Shown here: one piece after another, positions 29,676 to 43,312 of the stretch
Layout: each line of letters opens with the position of its first letter
How positions within the stretch are numbered: the first letter of the stretch is position 1
Assembly (NCBI RefSeq): GCF_003570995.1
Contig: NZ_QXIY01000030.1
Location: 1-64,000, forward strand
Source of the DNA: Candidatus Cryosericum septentrionale
GTDB taxonomy: Bacteria > Caldisericota > Caldisericia > Cryosericales > Cryosericaceae
Direction of reading: 5' to 3'
DNA length: 64,000 nt
The notes under the pieces: model-generated
The model's database searches: none
What the model was told of the DNA's origin: nothing
What the model saw: only the letters and a program-made list of their open reading frames with translations
Position numbers and translations under genes: made by a program

Positions 29676-29702
29676 TGTCATTCCCGCGAAGGCGGGGATC
29701 CA
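29676..29702 (-). repeat. Dispersed palindromic repeat, family A, copy 1
   Basis: The palindrome ATTCCCGC...GCGGGGAT lies between arsR and the AttH-like gene. Similarity with copies at 35244-35284 and 57949-57985 extends beyond the palindrome (GATGCAAGGATGGAT on one side, GAATGACAGA on the other, minus-strand reading), so it is one repeat family. Confidence 0.7.
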
Positions 29703-29727: not shown

Positions 29728-30798
29728 CTACCGTTCGTATCCCGTCAGCTCCACGTAAGCGAAGCCGTCCAGTACCTTTTTGTCCAGGAAGCGGGTGCCG
29801 TCCAGCTCGACCGGGGTCATGATTTCGCCGTGAATGGTGCACAGGCCCTCCCAGTAGTCTGGCGTGATCAACGACGACAGGTACTGCCCCTTGAGCATCG
29901 CCCTCACGTGCGCAGTCATGAAGGGCGTAGGTGCGTCGGGGCTGTCGAAGATCCGTATCTCCCAGTCGACGGGGTACGTGACACCGTTCCGAGCCATGCA
30001 GACATCCGACGCCCGCACCTGGAACCGTTCGACGCGCATCGTTTGCCCATGCCGGTATATGTTCCCGGCTCCATACGTCGTGCCCCACCGGTCAAAGTTG
30101 AACAGCATGACGTAGAGGTCGTCGGAGTCGAATCGAAGCGAGAACCAGTCCCACTTCATCTTGACCGCGTTGAAGTTGCCCCACTGGTGGTCATGCCACG
30201 TCAGCCCGGTGACGGGCAGACTCTCGCCGTTCAGGACGATCGTGCCCTCGGTCTTCATGTTGGGCAGCGTGAAATAGTAGGAGGCATCGCCCGGACTGTT
30301 CTGCATCTCCTGGATACCGCCCCCTCCTTGTGCCATGAGGTTCCGGATGGCACAAGAGCAGTGCACCCGCAGACCCCTCAAGCGTGCGTCGATGACGAGA
30401 CTGTTGCTCTCCTCGTTGAACCCAATCTGGTTGCCGAAGAGCGCAATCACCGTTTGAGCGTCGGAGGTGAAGGGGATGTGCACAGGCAGGACCATACCGG
30501 TAGAGGAGAACCTCTGGCCCTCGACGTCGGTGACAGCCGCGTGGACGATCACACTGTCGACCAGCGTTTTCACCCTGAAAAACGTCACTTCGAGTCCAAC
30601 GGGAGCTTTCCTCTTTGGTGTCGTCAGAACGCTGGTGAAATACCACCACTCGATGCGCGCGCCCCGGTGAGGAAAGTGGTCCCTGCTGGTGAAGTCGACG
30701 GGAGGAAGCGGGCGGCGTGACGCGCCCCGGACCATCAGCTCATAAAGTTCGATGGGCAATTGGGTCAGCGCTCCCTTGAGGATTCCCCTGAAGGTCAT
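29728..30798 (-). CDS. AttH/CrtC-like lipocalin-fold protein
   Basis: A 356-residue protein of the AttH / carotenoid 1,2-hydratase-like family, two lipocalin-like barrels. Typical signatures are DHFPHRGARIEWWYFTSVL near residue 40-58, FTLPNMKTEGTIVLNGESLPVTGLTWHDHQWG and WDWFSLRFDSDDLYVMLFNFD. Family members act on hydrophobic substrates, including hydration of carotenoids in CrtC; no carotenoid genes are nearby, so the substrate is unknown. GAGAGG stands 9 bases before the ATG. No signal peptide is clear. Confidence 0.75.
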   Translation of the reverse strand: MTFRGILKGALTQLPIELYELMVRGASRRPLPPVDFTSRDHFPHRGARIEWWYFTSVLTTPKRKAPVGLEVTFFRVKTLVDSVIVHAAVTDVEGQRFSSTGMVLPVHIPFTSDAQTVIALFGNQIGFNEESNSLVIDARLRGLRVHCSCAIRNLMAQGGGGIQEMQNSPGDASYYFTLPNMKTEGTIVLNGESLPVTGLTWHDHQWGNFNAVKMKWDWFSLRFDSDDLYVMLFNFDRWGTTYGAGNIYRHGQTMRVERFQVRASDVCMARNGVTYPVDWEIRIFDSPDAPTPFMTAHVRAMLKGQYLSSLITPDYWEGLCTIHGEIMTPVELDGTRFLDKKVLDGFAYVELTGYER

Positions 30799-30995: not shown

Positions 30996-31133
30996 GTCCC
31001 GAAAGGAGCCGTCGAGGAAGGGGCAAGGGGCGTCAATGGGGAACGGAGAGGTCAACTGGACTACGATCCTGACACCGTGGACCAGAGCGACGATGCTGTC
31101 GACGCGGACTCCGATACCGAGGAGAATTTATGA
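30996..31133 (+). other. Possible short acidic reading frame coupled to recQ
   Basis: A frame without a clear start codon reads ...EEGARGVNGERRGQLDYDPD and then [19 protein letters not shown], with its TGA overlapping the recQ ATG as ATGA. The strongly acidic, natural-looking composition and the coupling suggest a small coding frame; an ATG at 30992 lies in another frame, so a frameshift would be needed. Low certainty. Confidence 0.25.
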
Positions 31134-33205
31134 TCACCTATTCCCATGAATGGTCGTTGCAACTTCTGCGCGTCGGGACTGGTCTGGCAGACGCGCAGTT
31201 CCGCAAGGGACAGGAAGAGGCCATCCGCTCCATCGTCGAACAACCTGGTCGGTATCTCGTGGTGCAGAAGACCGGCTGGGGCAAGAGCTTCGTCTACTTC
31301 ATCGCCACCAGACTACTGCGCGAGGTGCATCAAGGACCTGTCCTGCTGGTCTCTCCCTTGCTCGCGTTGATGCGAAACCAGATAGCCGCCGCTGAACGCA
31401 TGGGTGTGCGGGCTAAGACGATCAATTCTGACAATCCAGATTCCTGGAATAGTATCGAAGCTGCTGTGCAGCACGACGAGGTGGACATTCTGCTCATCTC
31501 ACCAGAGCGGCTGGCCAACGAGCACTTTCGCACAGAGATCCTTGCCCACATCGCTGCAAAAATCTCTCTGCTAGTGATTGACGAGGCGCACTGCATCTCG
31601 GACTGGGGCCATGACTTCAGGCCACACTACCGTCTGCTGCAGCACACCATCGAGGCTCTGCCTTCCAACATGCGCCTGCTTGCAACGACGGCAACCGCCA
31701 ACAACCGCGTGATACAGGACCTCCAGACCGTGCTGGGACCCAACCTCAACGTGTCTCGGGGGGAACTGAACAGGCCATCGCTCAAACTTCAGGCCATCCG
31801 TCTGGCCAGCCAGGCTGAACGCCTGGCCTGGTTGGCCAAGCAGATACCGACCATGCCTGGCAGCGGCATCATCTATACGCTGACGGTACGGGACGCCGTC
31901 CAGGTAGCCGAATGGCTCACACTGCACGGAGTGCATGCAATGGCGTATACTGGCGACAGCGGCAGCGGCCGGCCTGAACTCGAACACACATTGCTGGACA
32001 ACCGGGTGAAGGCGCTGGTGGCAACCACGGCATTGGGCATGGGCTTTGACAAGCCAGACCTGGGCTTTGTCATTCACTACCAGACCCCGGGGTCGGTCGT
32101 GGCCTACTACCAGCAGGTGGGCCGCGCAGGGCGCGCACTGGATGCAGCCTATGGCATTCTGCTGAGTGGCACCGAGGAGAACGACATCAACGAGTACTTT
32201 ATCAAGACCGCCTTTCCGACACGCGACGAAGTACAACAGATCGTGAGGGCACTGGAACGCAGTCCTCAGGGACTCTCGCTGCCCGGCCTCATGGCCAGTG
32301 TCAACGTCGCCAAAGGTCGCATCGAGAAGACCATCGACCTGCTGGCTCTGGAGTCACCCGCACCCATCGTCAAGCAGGGTACCAGGTGGCAGCTGACGAC
32401 GACCAACCTGAGCGAAACGTTCTGGCAGCGGGCGCAGCGCCTGACCGACCTACGGCACGCTGAACAGGGACAGATGCAGAAATATGTGGATCTGCACACC
32501 GGACACATGGCCTTCCTCATCCGTGCCCTTGACGGGGATCCCGGCGATTGTTGTGCTCCTGACCTGCCAGATCTGCCTGCAACTGTCGACCAGCTCCTGG
32601 TGCGGGAAGCCGTGGCGTTTCTTCGCCGGACCAGTCTGCCCATCGAGCCCCGCAGACAATGGCCACTGGACAGCATGCCTCTATACGGCCTCAAGGGCAA
32701 CATTCCCCGCGAGCTCCAGGCAGAACCGGGGAAGGCACTCTGCACATGGGGTGACGCCGGCTGGGGCGATCTGGTGCGCCAAGGCAAATGCCAGGACCAC
32801 CATGTTGCAGATGATCTGGTCACGGCGTGCGCGTCGATGGTTCAGGAATGGAACCCACAACCTGGGCTCACCTGGGTCACCTGCATACCGTCCCTGCGCG
32901 ACCCGGCGCTGGTACAGGATGTTGCCGAGCGCCTGGCACACCGGCTGGAACTACCGTTTCGAGCTGTGATTCGCAAGAGCATCGACCGGCCTCCGCAGCA
33001 AACAATGCAGAACAGCATGCAGCAAGCCCACAACCTCGATGGATCGTTTGAACTCACGGCGACGTTGCCCGAAGGGCCCGTGCTGCTGGTGGATGACACG
33101 GTCGATTCGCGCTGGACCATGACCGTCGCAGCGTGGCTGCTGCGGTCCCATGGCAGTGGCGACGTCTACCCAGTGGCACTCGCATCCATAGGACCCAAAG
33201 GATGA
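31130..33205 (+). CDS. RecQ-family helicase with C-terminal phosphoribosyltransferase-like domain
   Basis: A 691-residue protein. Residues about 15-350 are a RecQ-like superfamily 2 helicase: Q-motif region FRKGQEEAI, Walker [10 protein letters not shown], Walker [18 protein letters not shown], motif [13 protein letters not shown]. The RecQ-C zinc site and HRDC are not evident. The C-terminal part (about 590-690) contains [24 protein letters not shown], the PRPP-binding loop of type I phosphoribosyltransferases (ComF-like). GAGGAG precedes the ATG. It overlaps the dprA-like gene by ATGA, so the two are coupled. Such helicase-PRTase proteins next to DprA suggest DNA uptake, recombination or defence; the precise role is inferred. 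Confidence 0.88.
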
Positions 33206-34413
33206 GTACAACACTGTCGCCAGACGGCCAAGCGATCCTGCTGCTTACGGCACCCTTGATGGCGGGGCGCATGGAGCTATCGGCCGACCTATTGACGCTG
33301 GGTGAGTATGGGTGTCTTGCGGTCTTCCTGCACGAGGTGCAGAGAGGTCCCGGCGATCTTCTCACTGTTGATGCGGATAGCCTGATTAGACAATGCCAGG
33401 AAATCGTGGACGGTGACCGCCTGAGACAGCTGCTTGGCCGAGGCTTCCTGCTGAGCCAAGCGGTCGACCGCTGGCAGGCCCGCGCCATCTGGGTTGTCAC
33501 GAGCGCGGATACGTCATACCCGCAGCGGCTCAAGGAACGGTTGAAGGACAATGCGCCGGCGGTGCTGTATGGCTGCGGAGACGCCACGATCCTGGAGACA
33601 GGTGGATTGGCTGTGGTCGGTAGCCGCAACGCGACCCCGGCACTGCAGACGTACACAGAGCACATCGGACAACTGGCAGCTCATGCACAGCAAACAGTTG
33701 TATCGGGCGGAGCGCGCGGGATCGACCAGGCGTCCATGCGCGGTGCTCTGGAAGCCGGTGGAACGGCTGTTGGCATGTTTGCAGACAGTCTGGAACAGGC
33801 AGCCCTCTACCGCGAGTATCGCTCCCCACTCATGGAGGGCAGGCTGGTCCTCGTGTCGCCCTACGATCCGATGGCCGGGTTCAATGTGGGCAACGCCATG
33901 CAGCGCAACAAGCTGATCTACGCTCTGGCCGATGCAGCACTGGTCATCAGTTCCGACTATCAGAAAGGCGGGACGTGGGCCGGTGCGGTGGAACAACTGA
34001 CGAAGTTGAGGTTGGTGCCGGTGTTTGTCCGCTCATGTGGCGACATCGGAAAAGGAATCCAGGAACTGCAGAACATGGGTGCATTGCCATGGCCGAACCC
34101 CAGCAACCCTGCAGAACTGGTTCGCACTCTGAGACTGGAGCAGGATCCAACCACAACCACTCACAACGAGGAAGTGGTGCCCACTCACGCGCATCAATCG
34201 ATGGCGGAACCACCAATCGCAATGCAGACCAAACCCGCCCCGACAAAGCGTCGTGCCAGACCCGCGAAGCCGGCAGGGATCATTGCCGAGCCGACGCTGT
34301 TCGACTCCACGCCGGAGGCGATAACCCCGAAAAAACGTGCGGCGACGGCACACAAGAAAACCGAGGGTAAGACTGACGGAGAAGAGGGAGAGGCTGACCA
34401 TGCCGATGACTGA
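33202..34413 (+). CDS. DprA/Smf-like DNA-processing protein
   Basis: A 403-residue DprA family protein. The Rossmann-like core has [61 protein letters not shown] (DprA signature SGGARGID), and a [10 protein letters not shown] region for nucleotide or DNA contact. After about residue 310 the C-terminus becomes a basic low-complexity tail ([26 protein letters not shown]) holding an EPTLFD segment, instead of a normal DprA winged helix. Coupled to the RecQ-PRTase upstream (ATGA) and to the RhuM-Fic gene downstream (14-bp overlap), so it is a part of one system rather than a stand-alone competence gene. Confidence 0.88.
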
Positions 34414-35258
34414 TAGCAGTAATAAAGGACTGGGGGCACTTCCTGACTTCTGCGGCGACGGCATCGTCTTGTGCACGGCGCCCGACGGTACCATGAAACT
34501 TGATGTCCGACTCGAGAAGGAAACCGTCTGGCTGACACAACCATCCATCGCGGAACTGTTCCAGACCACGGTGCCCAATATCAGCATGCACTTGCGCAAC
34601 ATCTACGAAGAAGGTGAGTTGAGCGTTGAAGCAACCCTTAAGGATTTCTTAACGGTTCGCCAGGAAGGCACCCGCCAGGTCAGCCGGAACCTCGAGTATT
34701 ATAACCTCGACGCCATCATCTCCGTGGGTTACCGCGTGATGTCCCGCGTGGCCACGCAGTTCCGCATCTGGACCACAAACGTGCTGCGCGACCGCCTCAT
34801 CAAAGGCTACTTAGTCAACGAGCAGCGCCTGCAGGAGCTCAATCAGGCTATCCGCCTGGTTGCCGACCTGGCCAGTCGGCGGGATCTCACGGGATGAGGC
34901 GATAGCACTGTTGCGTGTCGTGGGCGAGTACAGCTTTGCGCTCGACCTGCTGGACGACTACGACTATCAGCGTGTAGCGGCTCCTGGTGCCGGTTCCACG
35001 GTCATCCATGCCCTCAGCTACGACGAGGCGATCCGCATCGTGGAGCATCTGCGCGGACGCTTTGGCAGTTCGGAGCTGTTTGGACGCGAGAAAGACAACA
35101 GTCTTCAGAGCGCGCTGAGCGCGGTGATGCAGACCTGGGGCGGGGCCGACCTGTATCCAGGCGTCGAGGCAAAGGCTGCTAACCTGCTGTACTTTGTGGT
35201 CAAGAACCATGCGTTCTTTGATGGGAACAAGCGCATCAGCGCCGTGACGCAAGGATAG
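34400..35258 (+). pseudogene. RhuM-Fic protein, frameshifted and 3'-truncated
   Basis: From ATG 34400 (GAGAGG 6 bases upstream) the frame encodes a RhuM-type N-terminal domain (ETVWLTQPSIAELFQTTVPN, YYNLDAIISVGYRVMSRVAT) and stops at 34897 after LASRRDLTG. In the next frame the protein continues DEAIALLRVVGEYSFALDLLDDYD and reaches a Fic/Doc core HAFFDGNKRISA, so a one-base loss in the ACGGGATGAGG stretch splits it. Immediately after ISA the frame enters a dispersed palindromic repeat and stops, so the C-terminus is lost. Fic/Doc domains AMPylate or phosphorylate targets and often are toxins. It is the third gene of the recQ-dprA operon. Confidence 0.75.
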
Positions 35259-35284
35259 ATTCCCGCATGCGCGGGAATGACAGA
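35244..35284 (+). repeat. Dispersed palindromic repeat, family A, copy 2
   Basis: GTGACGCAAGGATAG followed by GATTCCCGC-ATGC-GCGGGAATGACA; same family as 29676-29702 and 57949-57985. It replaces the 3' end of the fic coding region and supplies its stop codon. Confidence 0.7.
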
Positions 35285-35349: not shown

Positions 35350-35874
35350 ATGAGCTCACATGTCATCCTTATCACTGGTCCGCGTGCGGCCGGCAAGTCA
35401 ACGTTCGCGGCTGAGGTCCACCAAGCACTTGCGGGCTCGGTCCTCCTGCATGTGGACGACCTGTTCCATGAGCTGCTGGCGCAGGACTGCAACAGATGGA
35501 TGGGCAACGAGGCTGAATTGTACACCGTGATCCTGCTCCACCAGCTGGCCCTCGCGCACGACCTCGCCCTGGCGGGCAGCTGCGTCATCGTCGACGCGAC
35601 CGTCCTGCCGGATCAGCTCGGCCCCCTTCAGGAGACGCCGGCTTCCGACGTGAGCGTCGTCGTCCTGTTGCTGTCCTTGGAGGAGTGCCTAGCGAATGAG
35701 CATCGGGCAACGCGGACAGTCCCGGTTCGAGAAGAGAAGGTGACCGCCACGTGGCAGGAGATGCAGGAATGGCGCACGGGGACAGAAGTCCCGGTTCGAA
35801 TCGTCGACGGGGATGAAGTCGAGCGCAGAAAAGCGTTGTCCATGGTCGTGAAACAGCTGCAGCAGGCGCCCTAG
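35350..35874 (+). CDS. P-loop kinase-like protein (AAA_33 type)
   Basis: A 174-residue protein with a Walker A GPRAAGKSTFAAEVH at residues 10-24, a VDDLFHELL segment and IVDATVLPDQL like the Asp-containing motif of zeta-toxin / chloramphenicol-phosphotransferase / gluconate-kinase-like small-molecule kinases, and a lid-like ANEHRATR. Substrate unknown. No SD; the start fits a leaderless transcript. The 3' end overlaps the convergent ABC permease gene by 4 bp. Confidence 0.65.
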   Translation: MSSHVILITGPRAAGKSTFAAEVHQALAGSVLLHVDDLFHELLAQDCNRWMGNEAELYTVILLHQLALAHDLALAGSCVIVDATVLPDQLGPLQETPASDVSVVVLLLSLEECLANEHRATRTVPVREEKVTATWQEMQEWRTGTEVPVRIVDGDEVERRKALSMVVKQLQQAP

Positions 35875-39464: not shown

Positions 39465-41171
39465 CTACCCCATATAAACGTTCTTCCAGTCGACAATTCC
39501 CAGCGCCGACTCGTAGAAGTTCTTGATGTGCTTGCTCAGAAGCATCGGGTTCGTGTAGAAGTAGACTGGAGCAATGGGCATATCGGTCATGAGGATCTTC
39601 TCTGCGGCATGCAGTACCGTCATGCGCGCCTTCGGGTCGACAGTGGCCTTTTCCTTTGCAATGAGAGTATCATAAGCCTTGTTGCTGTACCCAGTCATGT
39701 TCCTTCCATTGCCTGTCACCCACAGCTCCAGGAACGTATTGGGGTCCATGTAGTCAGCAGTTGGGGCCCTACGCACGACATCGTAGTTGAGGCTCGCCTC
39801 GTCAGCCAAGTAGACACCCCACTCCTCGCTCCTGAGGGTACAGGTGATACCAAGGTTCTTCTTCCACATCTGCTGGATCGCCTCGGCGACGGATTTGTGC
39901 AGGTCGGAGGTGTTGTAGAGCAGTGAGAAGGCTGGGAACCCCTTGCCATTCGGATAACCAGCCTGGGCAAGCAGTGACTTTGCGGTAGCGATATCGTTGT
40001 CCTTGAAGTATGGACCACCCACAGTGCGGAAATCGCTGCCAGGAAGTGCGTCCGGAATACCGTTGGAAACCATACCCAGCGCGGGAACCTGCCCGCCCTT
40101 CGTGATGGACGTGGTGATCTGATGACGATTGATTGCGAGCGTCAAAGCCTTGCGCACTCGGACATCGTTGAACGGCTTCTTGGTGACGTTGAACATATAC
40201 AAGTATGTCGCAAGCATTGGAAGGATCTTTACATCGCCTGAGGCTACCAGTTTGGGCAACTCCGAGCTGGGCACGTCCGCCGCGGAGTCCAACTGACCGC
40301 TCTCATACATCGAAAGCGCAGTCGAACTATCCTCGACCATGAGGAAGGTGATCTTGGTGAGCTTGACTGTGTCCTTGTCCCAGTAGGTCGGGTTCTTGAT
40401 AAAGACCATCTTGTCGTTGTGTGACCATTGCGTGAGTTTGAACGGTCCATCGGTCACATATGTCTTGACATCGGAAGCCCACTTGTCATTCGTGCTGACA
40501 ACAGCCTTGCAGACCGGATACAGCGTATTGAACGCCGTCAACGCGAGGAAGTAGGCGGTGGGCGACTGGAGATAGACCTTGAGCGTCTTGGCATTCAGTG
40601 CTTTGACGCCGACGTTCTTGCTGGGGTCGATCTCTTTCGCCATGTTTGCAACGGGGACGTCCTTGCCCCCTACTTTCTTCGTAAGAGGATTGCCTTTAGC
40701 ATCGACAGCCTGGACATAGTACTTGGTGCCGACCTTGATGGACTTGTTGAATGCCTGACCACCATACACGTAGTAGAGCTGGGTGGCGTATTCGGCAGCC
40801 AACTCTGGGTTGAGCACGCGCTTCCAGGCATACTCGAAGTCATACGCCGTGACAGGCGTTCCGTTCGTCCAATACGCGCCGCGAAGCGTGAAGATGTAAG
40901 TCTTCCCGTCCTTGGAGATCGTCCAGCTCTTTGCGATTGCTGGCTGCGGCACATTCTTGTTGTCGAGACGCGTCAACCCATCGAAGACCTGCATCTCGAT
41001 AGTGGCTTCCGGAACGCCAATGGTAATGCCCGGATCGATTCCAGGTGGCTCAGCCCCCAGGTTGTACGTCACCTCCTGAGCGACAGCCTTAGCTGACGGT
41101 ACCGCAGACAGTCCACCAAAGATTGAGACCACAAAAAGCAGTACCAAGACAAGCGATAGTACCTTTTTCAT
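39465..41171 (-). CDS. Oligopeptide-binding protein, family 5 (paralogue 1)
   Basis: A 568-residue extracellular solute-binding protein of the OppA type. Signal peptide MKKVLSLVLVLLFVVSIFGG without lipobox cysteine. Family marks: YNLGAEPPGIDPG, VFDGLTR, WTISKDGKTYIFTLRGAYWTNG, AYDFEYAWKRVL, DGPFKLTQWSHNDKMV, FNDVRVRKALTLAINR, EEWGVYL. GGGGAGG is 7 bases before ATG 41171. No oligopeptide permease genes adjoin. Very similar to the two following paralogues, which share the odd insert DAKGNPLTKKVGGKDV. Confidence 0.92.
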   Translation of the reverse strand: MKKVLSLVLVLLFVVSIFGGLSAVPSAKAVAQEVTYNLGAEPPGIDPGITIGVPEATIEMQVFDGLTRLDNKNVPQPAIAKSWTISKDGKTYIFTLRGAYWTNGTPVTAYDFEYAWKRVLNPELAAEYATQLYYVYGGQAFNKSIKVGTKYYVQAVDAKGNPLTKKVGGKDVPVANMAKEIDPSKNVGVKALNAKTLKVYLQSPTAYFLALTAFNTLYPVCKAVVSTNDKWASDVKTYVTDGPFKLTQWSHNDKMVFIKNPTYWDKDTVKLTKITFLMVEDSSTALSMYESGQLDSAADVPSSELPKLVASGDVKILPMLATYLYMFNVTKKPFNDVRVRKALTLAINRHQITTSITKGGQVPALGMVSNGIPDALPGSDFRTVGGPYFKDNDIATAKSLLAQAGYPNGKGFPAFSLLYNTSDLHKSVAEAIQQMWKKNLGITCTLRSEEWGVYLADEASLNYDVVRRAPTADYMDPNTFLELWVTGNGRNMTGYSNKAYDTLIAKEKATVDPKARMTVLHAAEKILMTDMPIAPVYFYTNPMLLSKHIKNFYESALGIVDWKNVYMG

Positions 41172-41324
41172 ACACGAACCTCCCCTTTTCAAAAAAAGCG
41201 TGCCGCATCTTACGGCTACCGAAATAATAACAATACGCCAAGAAAACGCAATACGACCTGGTCTGGGTGGCGACCCAAGGGTGTCCTCTGTTTCTGCAGC
41301 GGCTACGGTCTCCTGCAAACATGC

Positions 41325-41399: not shown

Positions 41400-43109
41400 C
41401 TACCCCATGTAGGCGAGCTTCCAGTCGACAAATCCCAGCGTCGACTGGTAGAAGTTCTTGATGCTCTTGCTCAGGAGCACTGGGTTCGTGTAGTAGTAGA
41501 TTGGAAGAATGGGCATATCTGTCATGAGGATCTTCTCTGCGGCATGCAGTGTCGCCATGCGCGCCTTCGGGTCGACAGTCGCTTTGGCCTTTGCGATGAA
41601 AGCATCGTAAGACTTGTTGCTCCAGCCAGTACCGTTGTTTCCGCCGCCCGTGACCCACATGTCCAGGAACGTGTTGGGGTCCATGTAGTCACCAATCCAG
41701 CCCGCACGCGCAACAGTGTAGTTGAGGTTTGTCCGGTCATCCAAGTAGACGCCCCACTCCTCGTTCTTGAGGGTGCAGGTAATACCAAGGTTCTTCTTCC
41801 ACATCTGCTGGATCGCCTCGGCAATGGATTTGTGTGCCTCGGAGGTGTTGTAGAGCAGTGTGAAGGCTGGGAACCCCTTGCCATCGGGATAACCGGCCTG
41901 AGCAAGCAGTGCCTTTGCAGTTACGATATCGTTGTCCTTGTAGAAGCTCTCCTGGGAAGCCTTGCGGAAATCGCTGCCAGGAAGCGCGTCTGTAATACCG
42001 TAGGGAACATACGCCAGCGCGGGGACCTGTCCGCCCTGAGTGATGGACTCAGTGATGCTCTTGCGGTCGATCGCCAGGAGCAAGGCCTTACGGACGCGGA
42101 CATCGTTGAACGGCTTCTTGGTGACATTGAACTGATAGTAATATGTCCCAAGGTACGGAAGGATTTGTGCATCACCTGAGGTGACCAGCTTGGGCAACTC
42201 TGAAAGGGGTACGGTGGCCGATGCATCCAACTGACCACTCTGATACATCGAAAGCGCAGTCGACGCATCCTCGACCATTAGGTAGGTGATCTTCGTGAGC
42301 TTGACCTTGTCCTTGTCCCAGTACGTCGGGTTATTGACGAAGACCATTTTGTCGTTGTGTGACCACTCCGTGAGTGTGAACGGTCCATCGGTGACGTAGT
42401 TCGTCGGATCGGAGGCCCACTTGTCATTTGTGCTGACAACGGCCTTGCAGACCGGCAACAGGGTAGGGAACGCCGTCAAGTTGAGAAAGTAGGCAGTGGG
42501 TGATTCAAGATTAACCTGGAGCGTTTTGTCATCCAGTGCTTTAACGCCGACGTCCTTGCTGGGGTCGATCTCTTTCGCCATGTCCGGCACGGCAACGTCC
42601 TTGCCCCCTACTTTCTTCGTAAGAGGATTGCCTTTGGCGTCGACAGCTTGGACATAGTACTTGCTGCCGACCTTGATGGACGTGTTAAAAGCTTCACCAC
42701 CAGAAATATAGTACAGCTGATATGCATATTGTGATGCCAGTTCCGGGCTGAGTGCGCGCTTCCACGCATACTCAAAATCGTATGCAGTGACGGGTGTTCC
42801 GTTCGTCCACAACGCATCGCGAAGCGTAAACACATACGTCTTTAGGTCTGTAGAGATTGTCCAGCTCTTCGCAATCGCTGGCTGCGGCGTATTCTTGCTG
42901 TCGATACGCGTCAACCCGTCAAAGACCTGTAGTTCGATGTTGGCTTCTGTAATGCCAGTCGTAATGGCCGGATCGATCCCAGCAGGCTCGGTCCCCAGGT
43001 TATACGTTACCTCCTGCAAGCTGCCTTTGCTGGCGGTGCAAGAAACGGTCCCCAAAAGAACGACAACAAGGAATGCCGATATCAAGACAAGCCACAGTGT
43101 TTTCCTCAT
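41400..43109 (-). CDS. Oligopeptide-binding lipoprotein, family 5 (paralogue 2)
   Basis: A 569-residue OppA-type binding protein. The signal peptide MRKTLWLVLISAFLVVVLLGTVSC ends in a lipobox-like Cys, so unlike paralogue 1 it is probably a lipoprotein. Otherwise closely similar (DAKGNPLTKKVGGKDVAVPDMAKEID, KNLGITCTLKNEEWGVYLDD). GGGGAGG stands upstream of ATG 43109. It is in tandem with paralogue 1 and has its own 3' hairpin, so the pair arose by recent duplication. Confidence 0.92.
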   Translation of the reverse strand: MRKTLWLVLISAFLVVVLLGTVSCTASKGSLQEVTYNLGTEPAGIDPAITTGITEANIELQVFDGLTRIDSKNTPQPAIAKSWTISTDLKTYVFTLRDALWTNGTPVTAYDFEYAWKRALSPELASQYAYQLYYISGGEAFNTSIKVGSKYYVQAVDAKGNPLTKKVGGKDVAVPDMAKEIDPSKDVGVKALDDKTLQVNLESPTAYFLNLTAFPTLLPVCKAVVSTNDKWASDPTNYVTDGPFTLTEWSHNDKMVFVNNPTYWDKDKVKLTKITYLMVEDASTALSMYQSGQLDASATVPLSELPKLVTSGDAQILPYLGTYYYQFNVTKKPFNDVRVRKALLLAIDRKSITESITQGGQVPALAYVPYGITDALPGSDFRKASQESFYKDNDIVTAKALLAQAGYPDGKGFPAFTLLYNTSEAHKSIAEAIQQMWKKNLGITCTLKNEEWGVYLDDRTNLNYTVARAGWIGDYMDPNTFLDMWVTGGGNNGTGWSNKSYDAFIAKAKATVDPKARMATLHAAEKILMTDMPILPIYYYTNPVLLSKSIKNFYQSTLGFVDWKLAYMG

Positions 43110-43312
43110 ACAGTAGCCTCCCCTTCCCAACAGGATTCGTGGCATCTTGCGGCCACCACAAGAGTAACCTAACTATTATAAGGATAACAGTACATCAGGA
43201 AAAAACAACACGATTCTGTATTGCGTATGGTCTTGCAAAAACACACAGGCATCCATACAATTGCTCTTACGTCAGGTTTTGCTCGGGAGACAAAAAACAT
43301 CGGAGGAATCAC

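Follow-up and report, generated by a model that had tools for sequence, protein, structure and literature searches.

The closest described counterpart of the locus analyzed here is PsyrTA, also named RqlHI, in which a helicase carrying a phosphoribosyltransferase (PRTase) domain is paired with a DprA-like protein. Escherichia coli RqlH alone is genotoxic, and its toxicity requires the PRTase domain; RqlI neutralizes RqlH and co-precipitates with it via this domain (PMC4670107). Two reports list PsyrTA among anti-phage systems (PMC10121019, PMC10855318); in one native E. coli host it slowed growth, and phage protection was not detected (PMC12409345). ShosTA and the P2-phage DprA-PRTase system (PMC9122126) also combine a DprA-fold antitoxin or sensor with a PRTase toxin, but in these systems the PRTase stands as a protein of its own, with no helicase fused to it. 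A RecQ-like helicase core is found in the Dpd helicase DpdF.

We analyzed a stretch of 64,000 nucleotides of Candidatus Cryosericum septentrionale (contig NZ_QXIY01000030.1, positions 1 to 64,000), referred to below as the window. It contains two adjacent genes, psyrT and psyrA (Table 1), and the PADLOC PsyrT profile matched the product of the first with an E value of 7.4e-269, spanning 679 of its 691 residues, while the PsyrA profile matched the product of the second with an E value of 1.3e-117. The RecQ-type helicase ending in a PRTase motif, the DprA homologue joined to it by an ATGA overlap and the 14-bp overlap (34400-34413) between the DprA-like gene and the next start codon, all part of the original prediction, were confirmed. 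The DprA-like partner lies directly 3' of psyrT on the same strand, the arrangement by which PsyrTA (RqlHI) is recognized, and the window pair shares with PsyrTA/RqlHI its gene order and overlap, its domain architecture and profile matches over the full length; the differences are a PsyrA with a disordered charged tail instead of the C-terminal winged helix, and a Caldisericia bacterium as host. Window PsyrA matched the PADLOC ShosA profile at 2e-23, compared with 1e-117 for PsyrA. DpdF models also aligned to the C-terminus of PsyrT, but the PsyrT match was far stronger and no further Dpd genes were noted around window psyrT. The proposal that the helicase-PRTase and DprA-like pair is a conflict or defense unit was thus supported, and by these homology criteria the pair is the already described PsyrTA (RqlHI) in a Caldisericia host, not a new system.

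Table 1. Features of the psyrTA locus, in window coordinates
Feature	Coordinates	Strand	Description
psyrT (rqlH-like)	31130..33205	+	RecQ-family helicase with C-terminal type I phosphoribosyltransferase domain, 691 aa
PsyrT helicase Walker A TGWGKS (residues 48-53) to DEAH box (residues 151-154)	31271..31591	+	
PsyrT helicase motif VI QQxGRAGR	32111-32134	+	
PsyrT PRTase domain (residues 505-691)	32642..33205	+	AlphaFold and Foldseek
PRPP-loop equivalent of the PsyrT PRTase domain	33080-33118	+	residues 651-663
psyrA (rqlI-like)	33202..34413	+	DprA-like antitoxin by homology, 403 aa
EPTLF (PsyrA residues 363-367)	34288..34302	+	variant of QxxLF / QLxLxF motif; candidate DnaN (beta clamp) binding motif
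RhuM half of decayed rhuM-fic	34400..34897	+	Virulence_RhuM E 4.5e-24; PADLOC PDC-S05/S23
Fic half of decayed rhuM-fic, other frame	34893..35258 (start ~34893)	+	Fic E 7.7e-12
Palindromic repeat ATTCCCGCATGCGCGGGAAT	35259..35278	.	terminates Fic reading frame; dispersed repeat family

Pfam and NCBIfam agreed on a DEAD/RecQ helicase and a phosphoribosyltransferase for PsyrT and on DNA-processing protein A for PsyrA, with the RecQ subfamily model TIGR00614 scoring above its cut-off, and Pfam Pribosyltran also matched (E 3e-4). The Walker A, DEAH and motif VI sequences are intact in the window protein, and the helicase motifs are at least 95% conserved across 74 PsyrT sequences. The C-terminal domain, which contains the VDDxxDS.WT loop, was modeled by AlphaFold as a type I PRTase (pLDDT 95.9), and its best Foldseek matches were PurF, PRPP synthetase, purine PRTases and ComF, that of H. 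pylori included. D151 and W158 of this domain are among the positions that are invariant in 48 sequences. The loop reads S-[RG]-W-T, with the Trp invariant in the same number of sequences, and canonical PRTases have TGGT at the corresponding position; this replacement hints that PsyrT may have an unusual PRTase substrate. It also distinguishes PsyrT from ComFA/ComFC, which share the logic of a helicase plus a PRTase, whereas PsyrT is one fused protein. Comparison of the window gene with three sister copies of the same genus gave dN/dS values of 0.13-0.15, showing that psyrT is under purifying selection. Viral carriage was considered as well, and a search of IMG/VR with a Pseudomonas PsyrT query matched only two contigs.

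PsyrA was matched by Pfam DNA_processg_A (E 4.6e-36). AlphaFold predicted an ordered N-terminal helical domain and a DprA/SLOG Rossmann domain, which matched the folds of Streptococcus pneumoniae DprA (3uqz) and the antitoxin ShosA (8zva), followed by a tail of mostly low confidence from residue 327 (pLDDT <50 for most of residues 327-403). The earlier observation that the winged helix has been replaced by a tail therefore holds, the tail being charged. The winged helix or helix-turn-helix (HTH) is kept by most PsyrA homologues of the first set that we collected yet is absent from many family members, so it is a common rather than a defining feature. For E. coli RqlI, residues 1-320 with the HTH removed are sufficient for neutralization, and the C-terminal 80-residue region is dispensable for it (PMC4670107).

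The DprA and ComF-like folds could be read as signs of a housekeeping pair, in which a helicase, DprA and a ComF-like PRTase serve DNA repair or DNA uptake and do not form a toxin-antitoxin system. Such a role would accord with the active helicase RqlH of Mycobacterium smegmatis, as cited in two reports (PMC4670107, PMC5512222), and with the frequent occurrence of rqlH without rqlI in Gram-positive bacteria (PMC4670107). We consider it improbable, since the genome encodes a separate, canonical DprA on another contig (C11), the pair is patchily present with empty sites within one genus, and the homologue's PRTase domain is toxic (PMC4670107). Because of this second DprA, the lack of competence genes near the pair is uninformative.

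The third gene, predicted as a single RhuM-Fic gene reaching position 35258, was found to consist of two out-of-frame ORFs that have lost the C-terminal ~60 residues. The Fic half is 86% identical to intact RhuM-Fic proteins of the same genus and ends right after HAFFDGNKRISAV, at the palindromic repeat. Intact relatives of the same genus (L114, L115 and L116; 346-361 aa) have an unbroken frame with ~60 further residues after HAFFDGNKRI. The window rhuM-fic is thus a pseudogene unless its frameshift stems from an error in the assembly, and the truncation at 35259 holds in both cases. Both halves match the PADLOC RhuM-Fic candidate PDC-S23, from which the window copy differs in being frameshifted and truncated, and elsewhere this family is not linked to PsyrTA. 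The dispersed repeat that terminates the Fic frame has the form ATTCCCGC...GCGGGAAT. A genome-wide search matched it 48 times (E <= 0.01), and further copies in the window lie at 29677 and 57962.

When the three intact genes (L114 12433-13479, L115 6222-7262 and L116 2478-3563) were compared with the window, identity was ~86% for the Fic half and ~54% for the RhuM half. This contrast suggests that the N-terminal module has been exchanged or is fast-evolving.

We compared the site among genomes of the genus. It is flanked by a CrtC-like gene (29728-30798, minus strand) and an AAA_33 kinase gene (35350-35874, plus strand), and psyrTA was found there in five genomes (G000, G001, G005, G007 and G002), the G007 copy being divided between two contigs whose overlap falls within psyrA, and the G002 copy lying at a contig end. 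Five sister genomes (G008, G009, G010, G011 and G013) have an empty site, with the flanking genes only ~180-390 bp apart, and in another (G004) the place of psyrTA is taken by a patatin-like gene and yyaL. In G001 and G005, yyaL lies 3' of psyrA. The gap between the flanking genes is therefore a variable site that holds psyrTA, alone or together with rhuM-fic or yyaL, the patatin-like gene with yyaL, or nothing, and presence against an empty site is the pattern that would be expected of a module subject to gain and loss. About 80 bp of the rhuM-fic start remain behind psyrA in G007 (MSKTDGRNKGLGALPEFAGGNIILYTA) and G001, from which it follows that rhuM-fic had become linked to the pair within this lineage and was later lost or damaged independently. 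It was a lineage-specific neighbor that decayed.

Several other features were noted at or near the site. Just past the CrtC-like gene, G007 has an extra block (L092 5047-11325) with a 1066-aa P-loop protein and, as judged by eye, an apparent HicA/HicB pair. A small acidic ORF upstream of psyrT in the window, ending at the ATGA at 31130, was rejected as a gene, as it lacks an ATG start and G001 and G007 are without the 79-bp stretch 31017-31094. The Rfam search of the window gave no matches. Downstream, at 39465-41318 and 41400-43145, two adjacent paralogues resemble substrate-binding proteins of peptide-type ABC transporters, with a short ORF starting MKRAAAN.RPLCM near each of two genes of this type.

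Damage within the genus was also found in psyrT itself. In G005 (L093 3439-3443), a 73-bp deletion removes the PRTase active-site loop and psyrA is intact, which is the pattern to be expected if the toxin is lost before the antitoxin. An apparent psyrA deletion in G001 was not real, because the assembly has a gap of consecutive Ns at that place. The G005 lesion and the adjoining pseudogene in the window genome could indicate that the module is decaying in the genus and is non-functional in the window genome. This is unlikely, as window psyrT and psyrA are both intact, psyrT is under purifying selection and the G001 lesion is only an assembly gap.

The neighborhoods of 80 PsyrT relatives from many phyla were surveyed, 76 of which had downstream DNA and could be tested; the other four loci end inside or just after PsyrT. 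Of the 76, 70 have a PsyrA-like gene behind PsyrT, with only a short gap or overlap between the two, and PsyrA was undetectable 3' of PsyrT in six. None of the 80 relatives has RhuM beside PsyrTA. Three loci carry the Fic signature HxFx[DE]GN[GK]R, and Fic is the third gene in 2/62 (L024 and L085, which are unrelated to each other and both carry other Fic types). The conserved trio of RecQ-PRTase, DprA and RhuM-Fic genes that a co-occurrence check, proposed beforehand, might have revealed was therefore not borne out. Third genes vary and include type I restriction R subunits (three cases), Hma (three), SoFic (two) and, in single cases each, BrxL (BREX), Mokosh, Zorya and DpdE. The E. coli plasmid PsyrTA is embedded in a type I restriction operon, flanked by the genes for the specificity and R subunits. 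A third gene that varies had been one possibility considered in advance, and this part stood, although on a qualitative view of the neighborhoods the third gene is often another defense gene. No recognizable defense island surrounds window psyrTA. These neighborhoods indicate that PsyrT and PsyrA form a unit and that the partners beside them are not fixed.

The survey and the site history bear on the reading of all three genes as one defense system, with RhuM-Fic as the effector and the RecQ-PRTase/DprA pair as the sensor. All three genes point the same way, with overlaps of 4 bp and 14 bp, the remnants in two sister genomes point to past linkage, and Fic is a third gene at the two unrelated loci. 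We regard this three-gene system as very unlikely, because the local rhuM-fic is broken in two ways, RhuM never adjoins the pair among the relatives, the sister genomes have yyaL or nothing in its place, the intact RhuM-Fic genes of the genus stand alone elsewhere, away from PsyrTA, and the pair persists without rhuM-fic under purifying selection. RhuM-Fic was accordingly rejected as the effector, its gene being broken and its association not conserved. The original prediction had Fic as the toxin; in the characterized relative, the toxin is the helicase's own PRTase domain and the DprA-like protein is the antitoxin (PMC4670107).

Window psyrTA is thus very probably a chromosomal PsyrTA (RqlHI) toxin-antitoxin or anti-phage module, and rhuM-fic a dead neighbor without a role in it. 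By analogy with the characterized pair, we infer toxicity, neutralization and a response to phage for the window pair. PsyrT would be a DNA helicase whose toxic part is the C-terminal PRTase-fold domain, and PsyrA would bind this domain and keep it silent, as was shown for E. coli RqlHI. Infection or a disturbance of replication would then release or activate PsyrT, which would damage DNA and stop the cell.

The PsyrA tails recurrently end in QLSLL, QLGLGL, QPSLF, QLDLEF, QMNLF and similar sequences. In the window protein the corresponding sequence is AEPTLFD (residues 362-368), which has E where the motif has Q and is kept in three sister genomes (G001, G005 and G007). The recurring endings resemble the motif that binds the beta sliding clamp. 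Its published consensus reads Q-phi-x-[LM]-[FL] or Q-phi-x-[LM]-x-[FL] within an accessible segment, and the Q helps but is not strictly needed (PMC13254535). The last 25 residues were searched with a relaxed pattern, Q..[LMI][FL] or Q..[LMI].[FL], which was chosen after the first set had been inspected and matched 23/66 PsyrA of that set, against 2.8 +/- 1.6 in shuffles. In an independent set of 42 PsyrA outside the first one, taken from two other genome groups and one viral contig, 20/42 matched against 3.2 +/- 1.7, the shuffle expectations in both sets ignoring the relatedness of the sequences. The pattern was found in 0/74 PsyrT tails, 2/24 canonical DprA (3.2 expected) and 6/134 neighbor genes (4.3 expected). 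Most matches begin 5-9 residues before the C-terminal end and prefer S at position 3 and L or P at position 2, neither of which is imposed by the pattern. Not all PsyrA have the motif; it is missing from L061, L081 and the E. coli plasmid copy, among others. The strict published consensus matched 9/66 of the first set against 0.6 expected and only 1/41 of the second, without enrichment, so that this validation set did not support it as a family-wide PsyrA feature.

These tails led us to a tentative proposal, plausible though somewhat short of probable, that the C-terminal motif binds the sliding clamp (DnaN), so that PsyrTA patrols replication forks and, when a phage replicates, its displacement from the clamp or competition for it frees the PRTase toxin. 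The motif on the flexible tail would tether the pair to the clamp at forks, where takeover by a phage could be sensed, and where the winged helix is absent, as in the window, the tail motif may be the remaining route to replicating DNA. The RqlI paper does not mention the clamp (PMC4670107), and none of the papers in the collection searched joined anti-phage defense with a clamp-binding motif. The one lead from this locus that may be new is the clamp-like tail motif.

Taken together, the analysis corrects a tempting three-gene reading, placing the likely effector inside the helicase and not in the Fic neighbor. If the clamp lead is true, it would suggest in concrete terms how a replicating phage might be sensed by PsyrTA.
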